Below, one piece after another: positions 7,560 through 33,877 of a stretch of DNA of 64,000 nucleotides (positions are counted from its first letter, which is position 1; the number at the start of each line of letters is the position of its first letter). Made by a program: the position numbers and the translations under genes. Origin of the DNA: Thiothrix litoralis (GTDB taxonomy: Bacteria > Pseudomonadota > Gammaproteobacteria > Thiotrichales > Thiotrichaceae). The stretch lies in contig NZ_CP072801.1 of the NCBI RefSeq assembly GCF_017901135.1, positions 2,973,501-3,037,500 of the forward strand. Reading direction: 5' to 3'. Below the pieces are notes generated by a model. The model did no database searches and had not been told where the DNA came from. It saw only the letters and a program-made list of their open reading frames with translations.

Positions 7560-8702
7560 TCACCCCTCGACGACCACCTGTTGATCCCGTACCCGGATAG
7601 CGGCTTTACCCGTTAACACGGCGGTGAACACATCATTCACCAAAGCGCCACGCCAGTCGTCTGACAACGTGGTGCGGCCTTCTTCCAGCATCTTTTCAAG
7701 CTGCTGGCGGGTGGCAATCATCTGCGCGGAAATGCCATGTTCGTTGGCGACCTGATTCAACAAGGCGGTCAACACATCGGCAATCACGCTCATATTCGCA
7801 TCCAGCTTGCGTCGGCGTGGCAATTGCGGACATTCGCTTTTCGGTACGGCTAAACCACGTGCAATACAGGCCAGCCATTCGCTTGCGCCACGTTCAATTT
7901 GCTCGTCGCTCAAACCCCGGATTTGGCGCAAACCGGCTGGGCTATCTGGCTGCATCCGCGCCATGTCCAGCAGGATTTCATCCGACAAAATCCAGCGGCG
8001 CGGAATGTCTTTCAGCAACGCACGCTGTTCGCGCCACGCCGCCAGTTCACGCAGGATAGCCAGTTGCTGCGGCTTGAGGACTTGCAAGCCTTTCACCCGC
8101 TCCCACACGGTTTGTGGGTCAACCGTATACGTTGCCGGATCGGCGAGTTTCTGGAAAGGCTTTTCCAGCCATTTGGTGCGCCCTAAAGTTTCCAGTTGTT
8201 CGCGTAACAGCTTATAGGCATCGCGTAAGTGGCGCACATCGTCAATGGCGTATTCAAGCTGGGCGCGAGTCAGCGGGCGGCGTGACCAGTCGGTGCGTGA
8301 TTGGGATTTATCCAGCGACAAACCCAGTAAGGCTTCCACCAAACGTGCGTAACCCATTTGGTCGCCCATCCCCAAGACGGCTGCTGCCACTTGGGTGTCA
8401 AACAACGGGGTGGGTACAGTGCCGTTACCGAGATGATGGAAGATCTCCATATCCTGCCAAGCAGCATGCAGCACTTTCAGGCGGTGCGGCTGCTTGAGCC
8501 AATCCAGAAACGGTTTCAGGTCAGAAATTGCCAGCGGGTCGATGCAAGCCAGCGTGTCTTCGCTGGCAATCTGGATCAGGCACAAACGCGGGTAATAGGT
8601 TTTTTCGCGAATGAATTCTGTATCGAGGGTAATCCACTCAGCCTTATCCAGACGGGCAAGCAAAGCGGTGAGCTTTTCGGTGTTATCAATATAATCAAAC
8701 AT
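7560..8702 (-). CDS. rnd: Ribonuclease D
   Basis: 3'-5' exoribonuclease for tRNA 3' end maturation. The N-terminal DEDD domain shows the LDTEFIREKTYYPRL motif with Asp and Glu, the HAAWQDMEIFHHL segment with the second Asp, and YAIDDVRHL with the DEDDy Tyr/Asp. An HRDC domain follows at about residues 205-290, plus a C-terminal helical part. The reading frame opens earlier at 8735, but the start MFDYIDN at 8702 matches the family N-terminus better; neither start has a clear ribosome binding site. It is convergent with the FAH gene. Confidence 0.9.
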   Translation of the reverse strand: MFDYIDNTEKLTALLARLDKAEWITLDTEFIREKTYYPRLCLIQIASEDTLACIDPLAISDLKPFLDWLKQPHRLKVLHAAWQDMEIFHHLGNGTVPTPLFDTQVAAAVLGMGDQMGYARLVEALLGLSLDKSQSRTDWSRRPLTRAQLEYAIDDVRHLRDAYKLLREQLETLGRTKWLEKPFQKLADPATYTVDPQTVWERVKGLQVLKPQQLAILRELAAWREQRALLKDIPRRWILSDEILLDMARMQPDSPAGLRQIRGLSDEQIERGASEWLACIARGLAVPKSECPQLPRRRKLDANMSVIADVLTALLNQVANEHGISAQMIATRQQLEKMLEEGRTTLSDDWRGALVNDVFTAVLTGKAAIRVRDQQVVVEG

Positions 8703-8866
8703 AATAATCGTGGTGCACTTAACAAGGACACCCATGATTGTACGGTAAACTGGGAATTAATCCATTTCTATACAAAATCCGTGGGCGTTGCTGCATTGCA
8801 ACGTTAGTGTTTAAGAATATTTGCATAATCAACTGCTTATTGACATCCTTTGCGTTTTTCTGCACA

Positions 8867-8908
8867 TTGATAAATATCAAATGCATTTACCCCTTTAATG
8901 TTTATGAA
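8867..8908 (+). promoter_or_regulatory. FNR/ANR-type operator with class II promoter geometry
   Basis: TTGATAAATATCAA at 8867-8880 is a perfect match to the FNR consensus TTGAT-N4-ATCAA. A -10-like TATGAA sits at 8903-8908. With a start site near 8915, the box is centred at about -41.5, the classical class II activator position. What follows on this strand is a structured segment with a terminator and no convincing reading frame. The box is palindromic, so an effect on the divergent rnd gene is possible, but no -10 sits at the matching distance on that side. Confidence 0.65.
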
Positions 8909-8913
8909 CCGCT

Positions 8914-8998
8914 AGTGAGGGTAGTTGCCATGTACAGTATTGCTAGGTTGTACATGGCCTGAGCGGGATGCCCGGTTACATCAACCGGGCTTTTTTTT
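8914..8998 (+). ncRNA. Candidate FNR-activated small RNA, about 85 nt
   Basis: Downstream of the FNR-type promoter lies a 9-bp perfect stem, 8927-8935 pairing with 8950-8958 (GCCATGTAC/GTACATGGC) around a 14-nt loop. CCGCT (8909-8913) could additionally pair with AGCGG (8962-8966) if transcription starts slightly earlier. A Rho-independent terminator at 8970-8998 closes the unit. No open frame in it has a ribosome binding site. The overall plan (FNR box, short transcript, U-tract) is that of enterobacterial FnrS, but I see no sequence likeness to it. Targets unknown. Confidence 0.55.
8970..8998 (+). terminator. Rho-independent terminator of the candidate small RNA
   Basis: Stem GCCCGGTT (8970-8977) pairs with AACCGGGC (8983-8990) around ACATC, followed by eight T. 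The T-run is on the plus strand only. The next gene on the right is on the minus strand, so the terminator serves a plus-strand transcript. Confidence 0.85.
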
Positions 8999-10739
8999 AG
9001 AGGGCGGGGTTCAGGATGGATTCAAGGTAAGTGCTAATGGCGCTGCTCGTATTCCGCTTGGACGTGCTTAACGTCACCCCCTGTACCAACGGCGCACTGC
9101 GCAATCCCAACAAGTAACGCATCAGCAACAAGGCATCCTTGCCTGCATCCTCATTGCCATCATTATCCACATCCATCACGGTTTGCACCGCTGCAAGCTG
9201 GGTTTCCAGTGCCGCCGTATCCAGCGCCTGCGTCGTAACCCCCTCCAGCAACGCTGCCCCGCGTACCCCTTGCAGGTAACGGGCAATGATCACACCTTCC
9301 ACCAAAGCCGTGGCTGGTTTGCTAGCACCACGCAAGCGCAGCGAAGGCGCTGTGCCAGACGTATCCAGCCAAGTGCTGATAAACGGCCAAATACGCTCAA
9401 AGCGACTGTATTCATCCGCTGCCCCCATGTTTGAACACTCGGAAGAGCCACCCAACAGCGAGCCATTTAGGTAATGCACCCCGCCTTGCTCAATCCATAT
9501 GCCCGAACCACTACTGCCGGGAGCGGTAATTCCGGTATGCCACACCACTTGGGAAAAATCACCGTTAGCGTCGGCTGTCACCGTATAACCGCCACTTGCT
9601 GTATCAACCCGCGCATAGCTCTCGAAATTACCGAGGGCGTATTTTTTAGGTTGCCCCAAGGCATGGTGGATACCCGCAACCGCCTGATTCGCTACCAAAG
9701 GCGTGGTCGTCCACCCTGACATCGTGACACCCGTAGGCGGATTATTGTTCAAACGCAGTAAAGTCGTGTCCAGCGCAGGCTTGGACACTAGCAATTGCGC
9801 CCCGCCGCTGGTCTGGGTAAAGCTGCTATCCGTTCCGCCGCAAGTCGCATTGGCATACAACCAGAACATATCCATGCTGCTGGCGGCCTGCTGATTGCTG
9901 ACGCAATGCGCAGCGGTAAAAAAATACGGGATTTGCGTGTACACATCCTTGTCCGCCAAGACTGTGCCGGAACACATGTAACTCAAACCATCCGTATCAG
10001 TGAACACATAACGCGCCACCGACTTGCCCGTTTCCTGCCACGCCGGGCTGGCACAAGCCAGATCCTGTTGGCAACTGGTGTATTCTTCCTTGAAAATACT
10101 GCTTTTCAGGGTGTTGCTGGCTGGGTCAACCACCAGATGCGACAACTGGGGAATTGCCAGCTCCACTTGTGCTGCCGTCACCCCATCAGGTAAGAACAGC
10201 TCCAGCCCCAACGTGTCACCTTCCAGCGTCGGCGACCAGAACAGGCTGTTAGCCTCCGTGTAAGGGCCAAACACATGGGCAGTATCCGTCGGCGAATAAA
10301 AGCGCAGCTCCACACCCGCCGGAACCTTACCCAGTTGCACCTGCGCCCGCACCCGCAACGCCCCGGTGGAACGCAGCGTAAAATGTGCCACTTTACCGCC
10401 ACTCACTGCCGTCCATTCCCACGCCGCCAAATCAATCGGCTGGCTGAGATTCGCAGGTAAAGTACGCCCCACCCCGACACGGAAAGCCTTTGCCCCCGTA
10501 GTCTGTTGCAGGAACTGGATTTCACTGTCATCCAGCTCAGGCAAAGTCAGTGTATTGGTGGCGCTTACAACCATGCCGCGCTTGGTTGTCTCCAAGGGCA
10601 AGCGTAGGGTGACGGCTGCCGTTGCCGGAGCAGCAGCATTTTCCTGAAATGTTTCCGGCTCGGCTTGCACTGCGTCATTCGAGTTAGCCAGCACCGCGTT
10701 GGACAGCAGCAATAAACAAGCAAACAGTGTTTTTTTCAT
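8997..10739 (-). CDS. Secreted trypsin-like serine protease with C-terminal dockerin-like repeats
   Basis: 580 residues with a signal peptide at 1-18 (cleavage near VLA-NS). The N-terminal 210 residues form a non-catalytic region. The protease domain at about 220-460 shows the catalytic triad: His278 in FFTAAHC, Asp324 in ALDTTLLRL and Ser410 in APGSSGSGIW, a layout like lysyl-endopeptidase-type enzymes. Several Cys suggest disulfides outside the cytoplasm. Residues 475-570 contain a repeat with a Ca2+-loop-like DVDNDGNEDAGKDALLLMRY, resembling a dockerin or EF-hand-like module. It is the second gene of a two-gene unit, overlapping the cohesin-like gene by 4 bases. Confidence 0.82.
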   Translation of the reverse strand: MKKTLFACLLLLSNAVLANSNDAVQAEPETFQENAAAPATAAVTLRLPLETTKRGMVVSATNTLTLPELDDSEIQFLQQTTGAKAFRVGVGRTLPANLSQPIDLAAWEWTAVSGGKVAHFTLRSTGALRVRAQVQLGKVPAGVELRFYSPTDTAHVFGPYTEANSLFWSPTLEGDTLGLELFLPDGVTAAQVELAIPQLSHLVVDPASNTLKSSIFKEEYTSCQQDLACASPAWQETGKSVARYVFTDTDGLSYMCSGTVLADKDVYTQIPYFFTAAHCVSNQQAASSMDMFWLYANATCGGTDSSFTQTSGGAQLLVSKPALDTTLLRLNNNPPTGVTMSGWTTTPLVANQAVAGIHHALGQPKKYALGNFESYARVDTASGGYTVTADANGDFSQVVWHTGITAPGSSGSGIWIEQGGVHYLNGSLLGGSSECSNMGAADEYSRFERIWPFISTWLDTSGTAPSLRLRGASKPATALVEGVIIARYLQGVRGAALLEGVTTQALDTAALETQLAAVQTVMDVDNDGNEDAGKDALLLMRYLLGLRSAPLVQGVTLSTSKRNTSSAISTYLESILNPAL

Positions 10740-29673: not shown

Positions 29674-30938
29674 TACAGGTCAACCGTCGTCAATGGCGCA
29701 CCCCGCATTGCCCCCCGCCAGACCGGATCCAGCGGTTCACCTTCAAAGCAGGAAGTCATCACCAACAGGATCGCACCATTACCCGCTGCGGCAATCAAGC
29801 CAGCCAGTAATTTCAGTGTTCCCAGACTGGCAAGATGGATGTTTTCCACCACCAATAACACCGGCTGGTTCAGCAAACAGGCTGACGTACCACGGGTGAA
29901 CGCTTCCCAAAGCGCATCATCCTCCGCATTGGCAAAGCCGGGTACTTCGCGCTGGCAACAGGAAAAACCACGGGAGGTCGCCAAGGTAGTAATGCTATCA
30001 AGCAAGGCGGTTTTTTCCGGGGTACTTTCACCGCGTATCAGGAAACCTTGCCCACCGATATTGTCCAGAATGCCTTCAATCGCCGTTTCGACCAGATAGA
30101 GGATACGCGCCGTTTTTTTAGCGGAACAGGTAAGTGCGGGGGGCTTGGTCGGCAAGGCGGGTTTCACGGGTGCTTCGGCTGACTCTGCTACCCAGCCAGA
30201 CAGGAGTTCAGCGTACAGTGCCTGGGTTGCCGGGTCAGGTTCCACCCCCAGTTCGCGCTGCAACACGTTCTGGCAACGCCGATACCAGCGCAGGGCAGCG
30301 GCATGGTTCCCCAGCCTGACATGCGCCCATAACAAAGCCCGGTATGCCTGCTCCCGCAAAGGGTCAATCCCCAACAAACGCACCGCAAAATAAGCCACCC
30401 GCTCATCCTCCCCTTGCTCCAGCAGGCTTGCTAGCCGTTGCTCCAGCGCGGCGGAAGCGCGGATGCTGTAATCATTACGGTAGGTTTCCAGCCATTCATC
30501 AAAGGAATCCGAGTGCGGGTTACAGCCTTCCAGAAACGCGCCGGTGTACAACTCAATCGCACGATCCAGCGCCATATCCGTGCCGCTGGTAAGCTCCTTG
30601 TCAAAATCAATGACATCGACAGCAATCTGCTCGCTGTCGAGCACAATCCAGTCCTTGGTGGTATGCAAGGGGCCGGCATCATCCGGCAACACCTTGCGCA
30701 ACTCAGCCAATGCCTGCCGCAGGCTGTGCCTGCCCTGAATTTCATCACTGTCAGGCCAGAGTACCGCTGCCAGTTGCTCACGGGGATGCTGCCTGTCCGG
30801 GTTGACTGCCAGCCATGCCAGTAACGCCTTGGCCTTGCGGGAATTAGGCGCAAGTGTTTCGCCATTGATATTTATCAAGCGAAAACCGCCAAATAACATG
30901 AGCTTACATTTTTTCACTGGGGCTTCTACCTTGACCAT
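29673..30938 (-). CDS. BTAD-type (SARP-like) transcriptional regulator with degenerate NTPase part
   Basis: 421 residues. Residues 11-100 are an OmpR-like winged helix (LMLFGGFRLININGE; LLAWLAVNP; RHSLRQALAELRKVL). Residues 110-250 are a bacterial transcriptional activation domain (AIELYTGAFLEGC; RHQ-like YRRCQNVLQRELGVEPDP). The remaining 140 residues align in layout with an AAA-type module, but the Walker A position reads RGESTPEKTAL, lacking the GxxxxGK pattern; LLVVENIHLASLG is a Walker B-like strand. It ends early compared with large BTAD ATPases. Overlaps dusC by one base. Confidence 0.77.
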   Translation of the reverse strand: MVKVEAPVKKCKLMLFGGFRLININGETLAPNSRKAKALLAWLAVNPDRQHPREQLAAVLWPDSDEIQGRHSLRQALAELRKVLPDDAGPLHTTKDWIVLDSEQIAVDVIDFDKELTSGTDMALDRAIELYTGAFLEGCNPHSDSFDEWLETYRNDYSIRASAALEQRLASLLEQGEDERVAYFAVRLLGIDPLREQAYRALLWAHVRLGNHAAALRWYRRCQNVLQRELGVEPDPATQALYAELLSGWVAESAEAPVKPALPTKPPALTCSAKKTARILYLVETAIEGILDNIGGQGFLIRGESTPEKTALLDSITTLATSRGFSCCQREVPGFANAEDDALWEAFTRGTSACLLNQPVLLVVENIHLASLGTLKLLAGLIAAAGNGAILLVMTSCFEGEPLDPVWRGAMRGAPLTTVDL

Positions 30939-33652: not shown

Positions 33653-33724
33653 GGGATATGGGTTCCGTCCGTAGCGATGCGCCCGTCGCGCACGTATACC
33701 AAGCGACCGAGGTAAGGTCGCACC

Positions 33725-33842
33725 TTGTCAGGCCGGTATCGGACTTACAGCTTATTTAAACTGCTTACCGTTGCGAGGGCAGTGTTGGTCTTACACCAAC
33801 TTCCCGTTTAACGCCCGCAACAAACGGGCAGCACCTGAACAG
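33725..33842 (-). ncRNA. Cobalamin riboswitch
   Basis: Read on the minus strand, the leader of btuB has the aptamer landmarks in order: AGGTGCTGCCC, then GCGGGCGTTAAACGGGAAG, GGTGTAAGACC, ACTGCCCTCGCAACGGTAAG and the B12 box AAGTCCGATACCGGCCTG. Downstream, GCGACC/GGTCGC (33703-33721) makes a hairpin in the expression platform, about 50 bases before the btuB ATG. There is no T-run, so control is more likely at translation initiation than by termination. Excess B12 should lower btuB-btuM. Confidence 0.93.
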
Positions 33843-33848
33843 TGCTGC

Positions 33849-33877
33849 ACGTTACGGGATTAGGCTTAGGCTGTCAA
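33849..33877 (-). promoter_or_regulatory. Sigma70 promoter of the btuB-btuM unit
   Basis: On the minus strand TTGACA (33872-33877) and TAACGT (33849-33854) with exactly 17 bases between, ending just before the aptamer. The -35 overlaps the stop codon of cpdA, which reads in the same direction. Confidence 0.75.

Follow-up and report, generated by a model that had tools for sequence, protein, structure and literature searches.

What is encoded in the short intergenic stretch beside rnd in Thiothrix litoralis, how is it controlled, and on what does it act? A first-pass annotation of the window (the whole stretch of 64,000 nucleotides analyzed here) had placed at this locus a transcript of about 85 bases, activated by FNR from a class II promoter. 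Comparison of the locus across Thiothrix and sister genera points to a different answer: the RNA, here termed RNA A, is probably an RNA sponge.

The small-RNA gene and its fold

The element is flanked on one side by rnd (7560-8735, minus strand) and on the other by a trypsin-like gene (8997-10739, minus strand), in keeping with the intergenic position originally described. A covariance model built from 13 sequences returned one strong RNA A match in each of 16 Thiothrix genomes (E <= 4e-13), and a DNA search placed the element next to rnd in nearly all genomes of the genus. RNA A is a single-copy element beside rnd, without a co-directional downstream gene in most genomes; among named public genomes, it was found only in Thiothrix species and one gammaproteobacterial MAG. 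Its features are listed below.

8875-8998, plus strand: RNA A, predicted sponge small RNA of about 124 nt, with conserved promoter, structure and terminator (end points predicted)
8907-8924, plus strand: pairing site 1, AACCGCTAG-T-GAGGGTAG, complementary to the B RNAs; CCGCTAG and GAGGGTA are invariant in Thiothrix
8909-8913, plus strand: 5' strand of P1, CCGCT, pairing with 8962-8966; 100% paired across 13 distinct sequences
8928-8936/8949-8957, plus strand: P2 hairpin; 7 of 9 pairs changed on both sides, 100% of cells paired
8940-8948, plus strand: pairing site 2, the apical loop TTGCTAGGT, whose GCTAGG is complementary to CCTAGC of the B RNAs
8962-8966, plus strand: 3' strand of P1, AGCGG, from the alignment of relatives
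8970-8998, plus strand: intrinsic terminator GCCCGGTT-ACATC-AACCGGGC-T8, with a covarying stem (8970-8977/8983-8990)

The fold thus comprises three helices, P1, P2 and the terminator. The covariation analysis proposed in the first-pass annotation found 99.7% of alignment cells paired and 11 pairs with compensatory change, a result equaled by 0-1 of 500 shuffles; when the partners were slid by one base, pairing dropped to about 40%. Little covariation is seen in P1 because that helix is mostly invariant. The flagged transcript had a folding z of -2.45. The G-U pairs of RNA A are G-U on the plus strand, and the plus strand is therefore the transcript. The annotated 9-bp stem and strong terminator with eight T are both present, as P2 and the terminator listed above, and the proposal of a terminated small RNA is strongly supported by the matches in all 16 Thiothrix genomes together with the compensatory changes. 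Of the proposed length, what stands is a short terminated transcript; the conserved promoter gives about 124 nt rather than 85.

Other classes of element were considered. As the first-pass annotation had stated, there is no credible reading frame: the ten-codon ATG frame ATGTACAGTATTGCTAGGTTGTACATGGCCTGA inside the stem is lost in relatives, which show stops, frame shifts and a missing ATG. A riboswitch or leader was rejected on the grounds that most genomes lack a co-directional downstream gene and that no Rfam match was found; indeed, a search of RNA A, the loci of relatives and the B loci against Rfam gave no covariance-model match at the gathering score, FnrS included, and the weak hits below threshold covered only hairpin and terminator. 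Elsewhere in the window, a Cobalamin riboswitch was detected at 33714-33852 on the minus strand (RF00174, 68 bits). Titration of CsrA/RsmA was also rejected, in that GGA occurs in the sister-genus RNAs but no GGA motif is present in the Thiothrix RNA A core. The only visible feature bearing on Hfq is the T-rich terminator tail. With a conserved promoter, compensatory base pairs, an intrinsic terminator and no conserved frame, RNA A has the features expected of a small-RNA gene and, judged from its sequence, is a genuine, conserved one of Thiothrix-type sulfur bacteria.

Conservation within RNA A peaks in AACCGCTAG-n-GAGGGTA (8907-8923) and in the GCTAGG of the P2 loop (8942-8947, invariant in Thiothrix), not in the variable P2 stem. 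Outside Thiothrix, the full covariance model matched terminators only, and sister-genus loci were for that reason sought by synteny with rnd. The RNA found beside rnd in genera g3, g4, g5 and g8 has a different local fold and keeps the seed AA[CT]CGCTAG; pairing site 2 was not seen as a second site in the sister genera. One genome of genus g2 carries an A-type RNA (CCCCTAACCGCTAGGAGGTTAG plus terminator; locus L186 of G023, C127) on a contig other than that of rnd. At four further loci (L118, L119 and L122 in g7, L126 in g4), a separate C-rich terminated element shares the strand of rnd and lies 100-450 bases upstream of that gene. It reads GTTGTTAGCCCC...CCCCCCTAGCG or CCCCCCTTGATG..., followed by GCCGGAC..GTCCGGC-T7, and looks like another anti-Shine-Dalgarno (anti-SD) type small RNA.

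The promoter and its upstream elements

Upstream of RNA A, the following elements were recognized.

8792-8800, unstranded: PhaR-type box TGCATTGCA (consensus YGCRNYGCR), matching the Sinorhizobium PhaR core (PMC12542648)
8827-8839, plus strand: IHF-like site AATCAACTGCTTA (WATCAANNNNTTR), abutting the -35 element, with a consensus match in most Thiothrix relatives; putative in function
8840-8845, plus strand: -35 element TTGACA; TTGAC[AG] in 16 of 16 Thiothrix genomes and TTGAC at the corresponding place in sister genera
8863-8868, plus strand: -10 element CACATT after a 17-nt spacer, with a predicted start at about 8875; NANNNT at 16-18 nt in relatives
8867-8880, unstranded: FNR-type dyad TTGATAAATATCAA, overlapping the -10 element and the start

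Aligned relatives share TTGAC[AG], a spacer of 16-18 nt and a -10 element of the CACATT/CATATT type, and a similar promoter is found in sister genera. By these sequence features, the RNA A promoter is of the sigma-70 type, TTGACA-17-CACATT (8840-8868), with its start predicted near 8875.

This placement bears directly on the reading first proposed, in which FNR activates the small RNA at a class II promoter and transcription begins near 8915, with TATGAA as the -10; we now consider that reading highly improbable. The window does contain the reported perfect TTGAT-N4-ATCAA (8867-8880), correctly spaced from a TATGAA hexamer (8903-8908), and TTGA-N6-TCAA dyads occur, at changing positions, in the RNA A promoter of 17 of 25 genomes. 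However, TATGAA varies in both sequence and spacing, also in genomes that keep the box, and transcription from 8915 would omit the invariant CCGCT of P1 (8909-8913) and most of the seed. Moreover, the dyad shifts relative to the RNA: it lies at about -9 to +5 of the conserved promoter in the window, across the -10 element and start, and on the -35 element in several relatives. It is perfect in only two genomes, that of the window (G000) and G008, matches at 9 of 10 positions in seven other Thiothrix genomes, and is displaced or absent in the rest. No FNR box was found at -41.5 of the start in use with a correctly spaced -10, and the claim that such a class II transcript is present in all its parts is not confirmed. 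The first-pass annotation had made conservation in close relatives decisive for box and stems alike; the stems are conserved, and the box is kept, perfectly or at 9 of 10 positions, in some of the genomes only.

A role of a CRP/FNR-family protein at this promoter is possible. If such a protein binds the dyad, repression would be the more natural reading, since the dyad sits on core promoter elements, at positions typical of repression. Perfect copies of TTGAT-N4-ATCAA number two in the window, against 0.04 expected; the second, TTGATATTTATCAA at 30865-30878, apparently falls within a minus-strand coding region, in its 5' part, and is probably fortuitous. The IHF-like site AATCAACTGCTTA doubles as an imperfect TCAAC-N5-GTTGA dyad.

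Like the dyad, the PhaR-type box was followed across relatives. YGCRNYGCR occurs within 140 bp upstream of the RNA A seed in 16 of 16 Thiothrix genomes; G009 has it elsewhere, the other 15 at the aligned place. Such boxes also precede the listed B2 loci. Each of the 16 genomes encodes one PhaR-family protein (PF07879). The combination that would define a PhaR regulon, a promoter site predicted from sequence and a PhaR gene in the same genome, is present, which makes a link of these RNAs to polyhydroxybutyrate plausible.

The B RNAs and their complementarity to RNA A

Besides RNA A, every Thiothrix genome carries one or two further structured RNAs, B1 and B2. Their loci were found using RNA A's own sequence: CCNAACCGCTAGNNGG had 31 matches in Thiothrix, compared with 3 for the reversed control. 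On the opposite strand, the loci carry CTCCTAGCGGTT, in most cases CCTCCTAGCGGTT, with an intrinsic terminator following at once. Their positions in the window's genome are given below.

C1:2013150-2013160: B1
C1:3843726-3843736: B2

Because of this route of discovery, complementarity as such is not independent evidence. Independent support for the B loci comes from their own conserved structure, their terminators, their synteny and flanks that match genus by genus. The B1 and B2 folds covary, with compensatory changes, and leave the invariant CCUCCUAGCGGUU unpaired between hairpin and terminator; similar B RNAs occur in genera g2, g3, g4, g5 and g8. Two other elements were noted in the window's genome. 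A third element, resembling CTCCTCCTAGCGGTTGCCCTC-TTCG-GAGGGC-T7, lies beside a muramidase-like gene in a possible prophage (C1:1254853-1254863, L158) and is possibly a phage-borne imitation of the B RNAs. At C1:2411578-2411586 (L160), there is a CTCCTCCTCCTCCTCCTAGCGG repeat, possibly a further anti-SD RNA, with a PhaR-type box, TTGCTGCATTGCAAAAACG, ahead of it.

The B seed CCUCCUAGCGGUU is complementary, by sequence, to the invariant AACCGCUAG-n-GAGGG of RNA A, so that RNA A has the extended complementarity, conserved on both sides, that a sponge is expected to show towards its partner's seed. In place of unrestricted full-length duplex energies, which were uninformative, 22-nt windows of A were compared with 22-nt windows of B, with 12 shuffles of A as controls. 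For each of the 41 A/B pairs taken within one genome (26 genomes overall), the best local duplex was seed on seed, with energies of -22 to -37 kcal/mol against shuffled-A means of -14 to -22 (-26.6 and -26.4 kcal/mol in the window's genome); for 4 of these pairs, however, one of the 12 shuffled RNAs reached a lower energy than the real duplex. In Thiothrix, where a B1 copy reads UACCCUC or UAUCCUC before CUAGCGGUU, the duplex has a 1-nt bulge flanked by 9 and 7 pairs. Uninterrupted Watson-Crick complementarity reaches 16 nt in three g4 genomes, 17 in G023 and 14-15 in g3, and in two g8 genomes, where the A seed reads AATCG, its U still pairs as G-U. The bulge in Thiothrix and the partial occupation of CCGCT by P1 count against the pairing. 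For the second RNA A loop, GCUAGG, the B seed also offers a partner, its CCUAGC.

An alternative is that the GCUAG motif is a protein-binding site and the A/B complementarity incidental. A nearly palindromic GCUAG/CUAGC, an almost invariant loop and seed, and a motif retained when the local structure changes all speak for such a site. Nevertheless, the reverse complementarity of A and B is not confined to GCUAG but continues far past it, and in each genus the flanks of the two correspond (CCUAACCG/CGGUUAGG in g2, GCCCCAACCG/CGGUUGGGGC in g3, CCAACCG/CGGUUGG in g4), which leads us to regard this alternative as very unlikely.

Targets, direction and related circuits

The hexamer CCUCCU is the anti-SD of 16S rRNA. 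Given that the B seed contains it, the B RNAs would be expected to occlude CUAGGAGG-type ribosome-binding sites. Exact B-target sites, AACCGCTAGGA, number about 14 outside A and B in 16 genomes, which is not above the reversed control. The exact sites recur in 2-3 genomes each, before the genes listed below.

G000, G012 and G006: candidate B target, 72-aa protein
G010 and G014: candidate B target, sulfide:quinone-oxidoreductase-like protein (named by eye from sequence)
G000 and G014: candidate B target, hemerythrin-like protein

For the 72-aa protein and the sulfide:quinone-oxidoreductase-like protein, AACCGCTAGGA overlaps or directly precedes the ribosome-binding site in some genomes; most other orthologs of the 72-aa gene keep only CTAGGAGG or TTAGGAGG. 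Since the exact sites are not enriched and their conservation is partial, all three genes are treated as leads.

Direct mRNA targets of RNA A were sought through the complement of its seed and rejected. The complement of the 17-nt RNA A seed is no commoner elsewhere than the reversed control, and 14-nt matches to it, when 2 mismatches are allowed, do not exceed the control. RNA A could still be an independent small RNA whose main targets are other than the B RNAs, with or without binding to B, and its single copy beside rnd, mostly without a co-directional downstream gene, would suit that role. We judge this unlikely, in that pairing to the B seed accounts for the bases that RNA A conserves most strictly and the seed complement is not enriched elsewhere.

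As to direction, the sequence would fit either A sponging B or B titrating A. Roles could be reversed, RNA A being an mRNA-targeting regulator and the B RNAs its sponges: both sides expose invariant seeds, RNA A is the single-copy partner with two sites, and mutual effects of CrfA and SisA are known from Caulobacter crescentus (PMC12559287). Yet the ribosomal anti-SD CCUCCU within the B seed readily suggests which mRNAs it would target, in some genomes exact AACCGCTAGGA lies on or just ahead of the ribosome-binding sites of the 72-aa and sulfide:quinone-oxidoreductase-like genes, and the RNA A seed resembles a Shine-Dalgarno sequence and so would imitate a target of B. These points make reversed roles, in our estimation, improbable.

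We favor, with moderate confidence, the reading of RNA A as a stand-alone sponge small RNA that would pair with and sequester the anti-SD RNAs B1 and B2. Transcribed from TTGACA-17-CACATT on the plus strand, over about 8875-8998, it would present a seed, perhaps with the exposed loop making first contact, to the seed of B RNAs that may otherwise block ribosome-binding sites through the anti-SD CCUCCUAG; pairing would then release the mRNA targets. Less certainly, the boxes upstream of A and B2 may be where PhaR, which senses polyhydroxybutyrate, acts, and the dyad on the -10 element and start of A may serve its repression by a CRP/FNR-family protein. Extended to the whole family, the circuit would consist of anti-SD siblings (B1, B2 or more) checked by the two-site sponge A, with carbon storage, through PhaR, and oxygen or redox state, through CRP/FNR, setting the balance. 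Polyhydroxybutyrate status would in this way control how far genes of respiration and sulfur oxidation, sulfide:quinone oxidoreductase for example, are translated; this wider scheme is tentative, and we consider it doubtful as a whole.

The closest known arrangement is found in Caulobacter crescentus, in which CrfA sponges SisA-D of the alphaR8/MmgR family, RNAs built of a weak hairpin, a single-stranded anti-SD core UUUCCUCCCU and a terminator (PMC12559287). MmgR, the alphaR8 RNA of Sinorhizobium, limits polyhydroxybutyrate and is repressed by PhaR, which binds the mmgR promoter of Sinorhizobium meliloti; in most species, an alphaR8 copy lies beside a putative N-formylglutamate amidohydrolase gene (PMC12542648, PMC12559287). 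As in CrfA/SisA-D, a single sponge with a G/A-rich site faces several siblings with a single-stranded anti-SD core. The B RNAs have the alphaR8 architecture of hairpin, single-stranded core and Rho-independent terminator, the B2 core UUUCCUCCUA has the same first 8 bases as UUUCCUCCCU, and B2, like mmgR, has PhaR-type boxes. However, the core UUUCCUCCCU itself is not present, B1 having other bases upstream of CCUCC; the B seed continues as CUAGCGGUU; and B2 adjoins an nqrF-like gene. RNA A differs from CrfA in belonging to Gammaproteobacteria, in its two sites and in having no Rfam match, and the A/B pairing is predicted from sequence, whereas that of CrfA and SisA has been demonstrated. The Thiothrix circuit thus appears to be of the type of a small-RNA sponge with anti-SD siblings rather than a member of alphaR8, having a different seed, different neighbors and no Rfam relation.

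Other comparisons are looser. RNA A shares with FnrS and FNR-activated small RNAs an intergenic position, an intrinsic terminator and an FNR-type dyad near the promoter, but it has no Rfam match, and its dyad lies on the -10 element and start instead of at -41.5 and is not conserved in place. As far as their descriptions go, the B RNAs resemble the sibling small RNAs of Neisseria (PMC5362039), and RNA A resembles the sponges QrrX, SroC and AgvB and the RoxS sponge in occupying the seed of a small RNA; all of these are described from other bacterial groups. Our literature search found no regulatory RNA described for Thiothrix-type sulfur bacteria and no report, in this group, of a circuit that sets a sponge against ribosome-blocking sibling RNAs.

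With named RNAs, coordinates and pairing bases now given for the Thiothrix group, the prediction is testable. If true, it would add another case of a sponge set against anti-SD siblings, in a different bacterial class and with PhaR-type promoter boxes as at mmgR, and would suggest that circuits of the CrfA/SisA/MmgR type are a recurrent form of carbon-storage control and not a peculiarity of Alphaproteobacteria.
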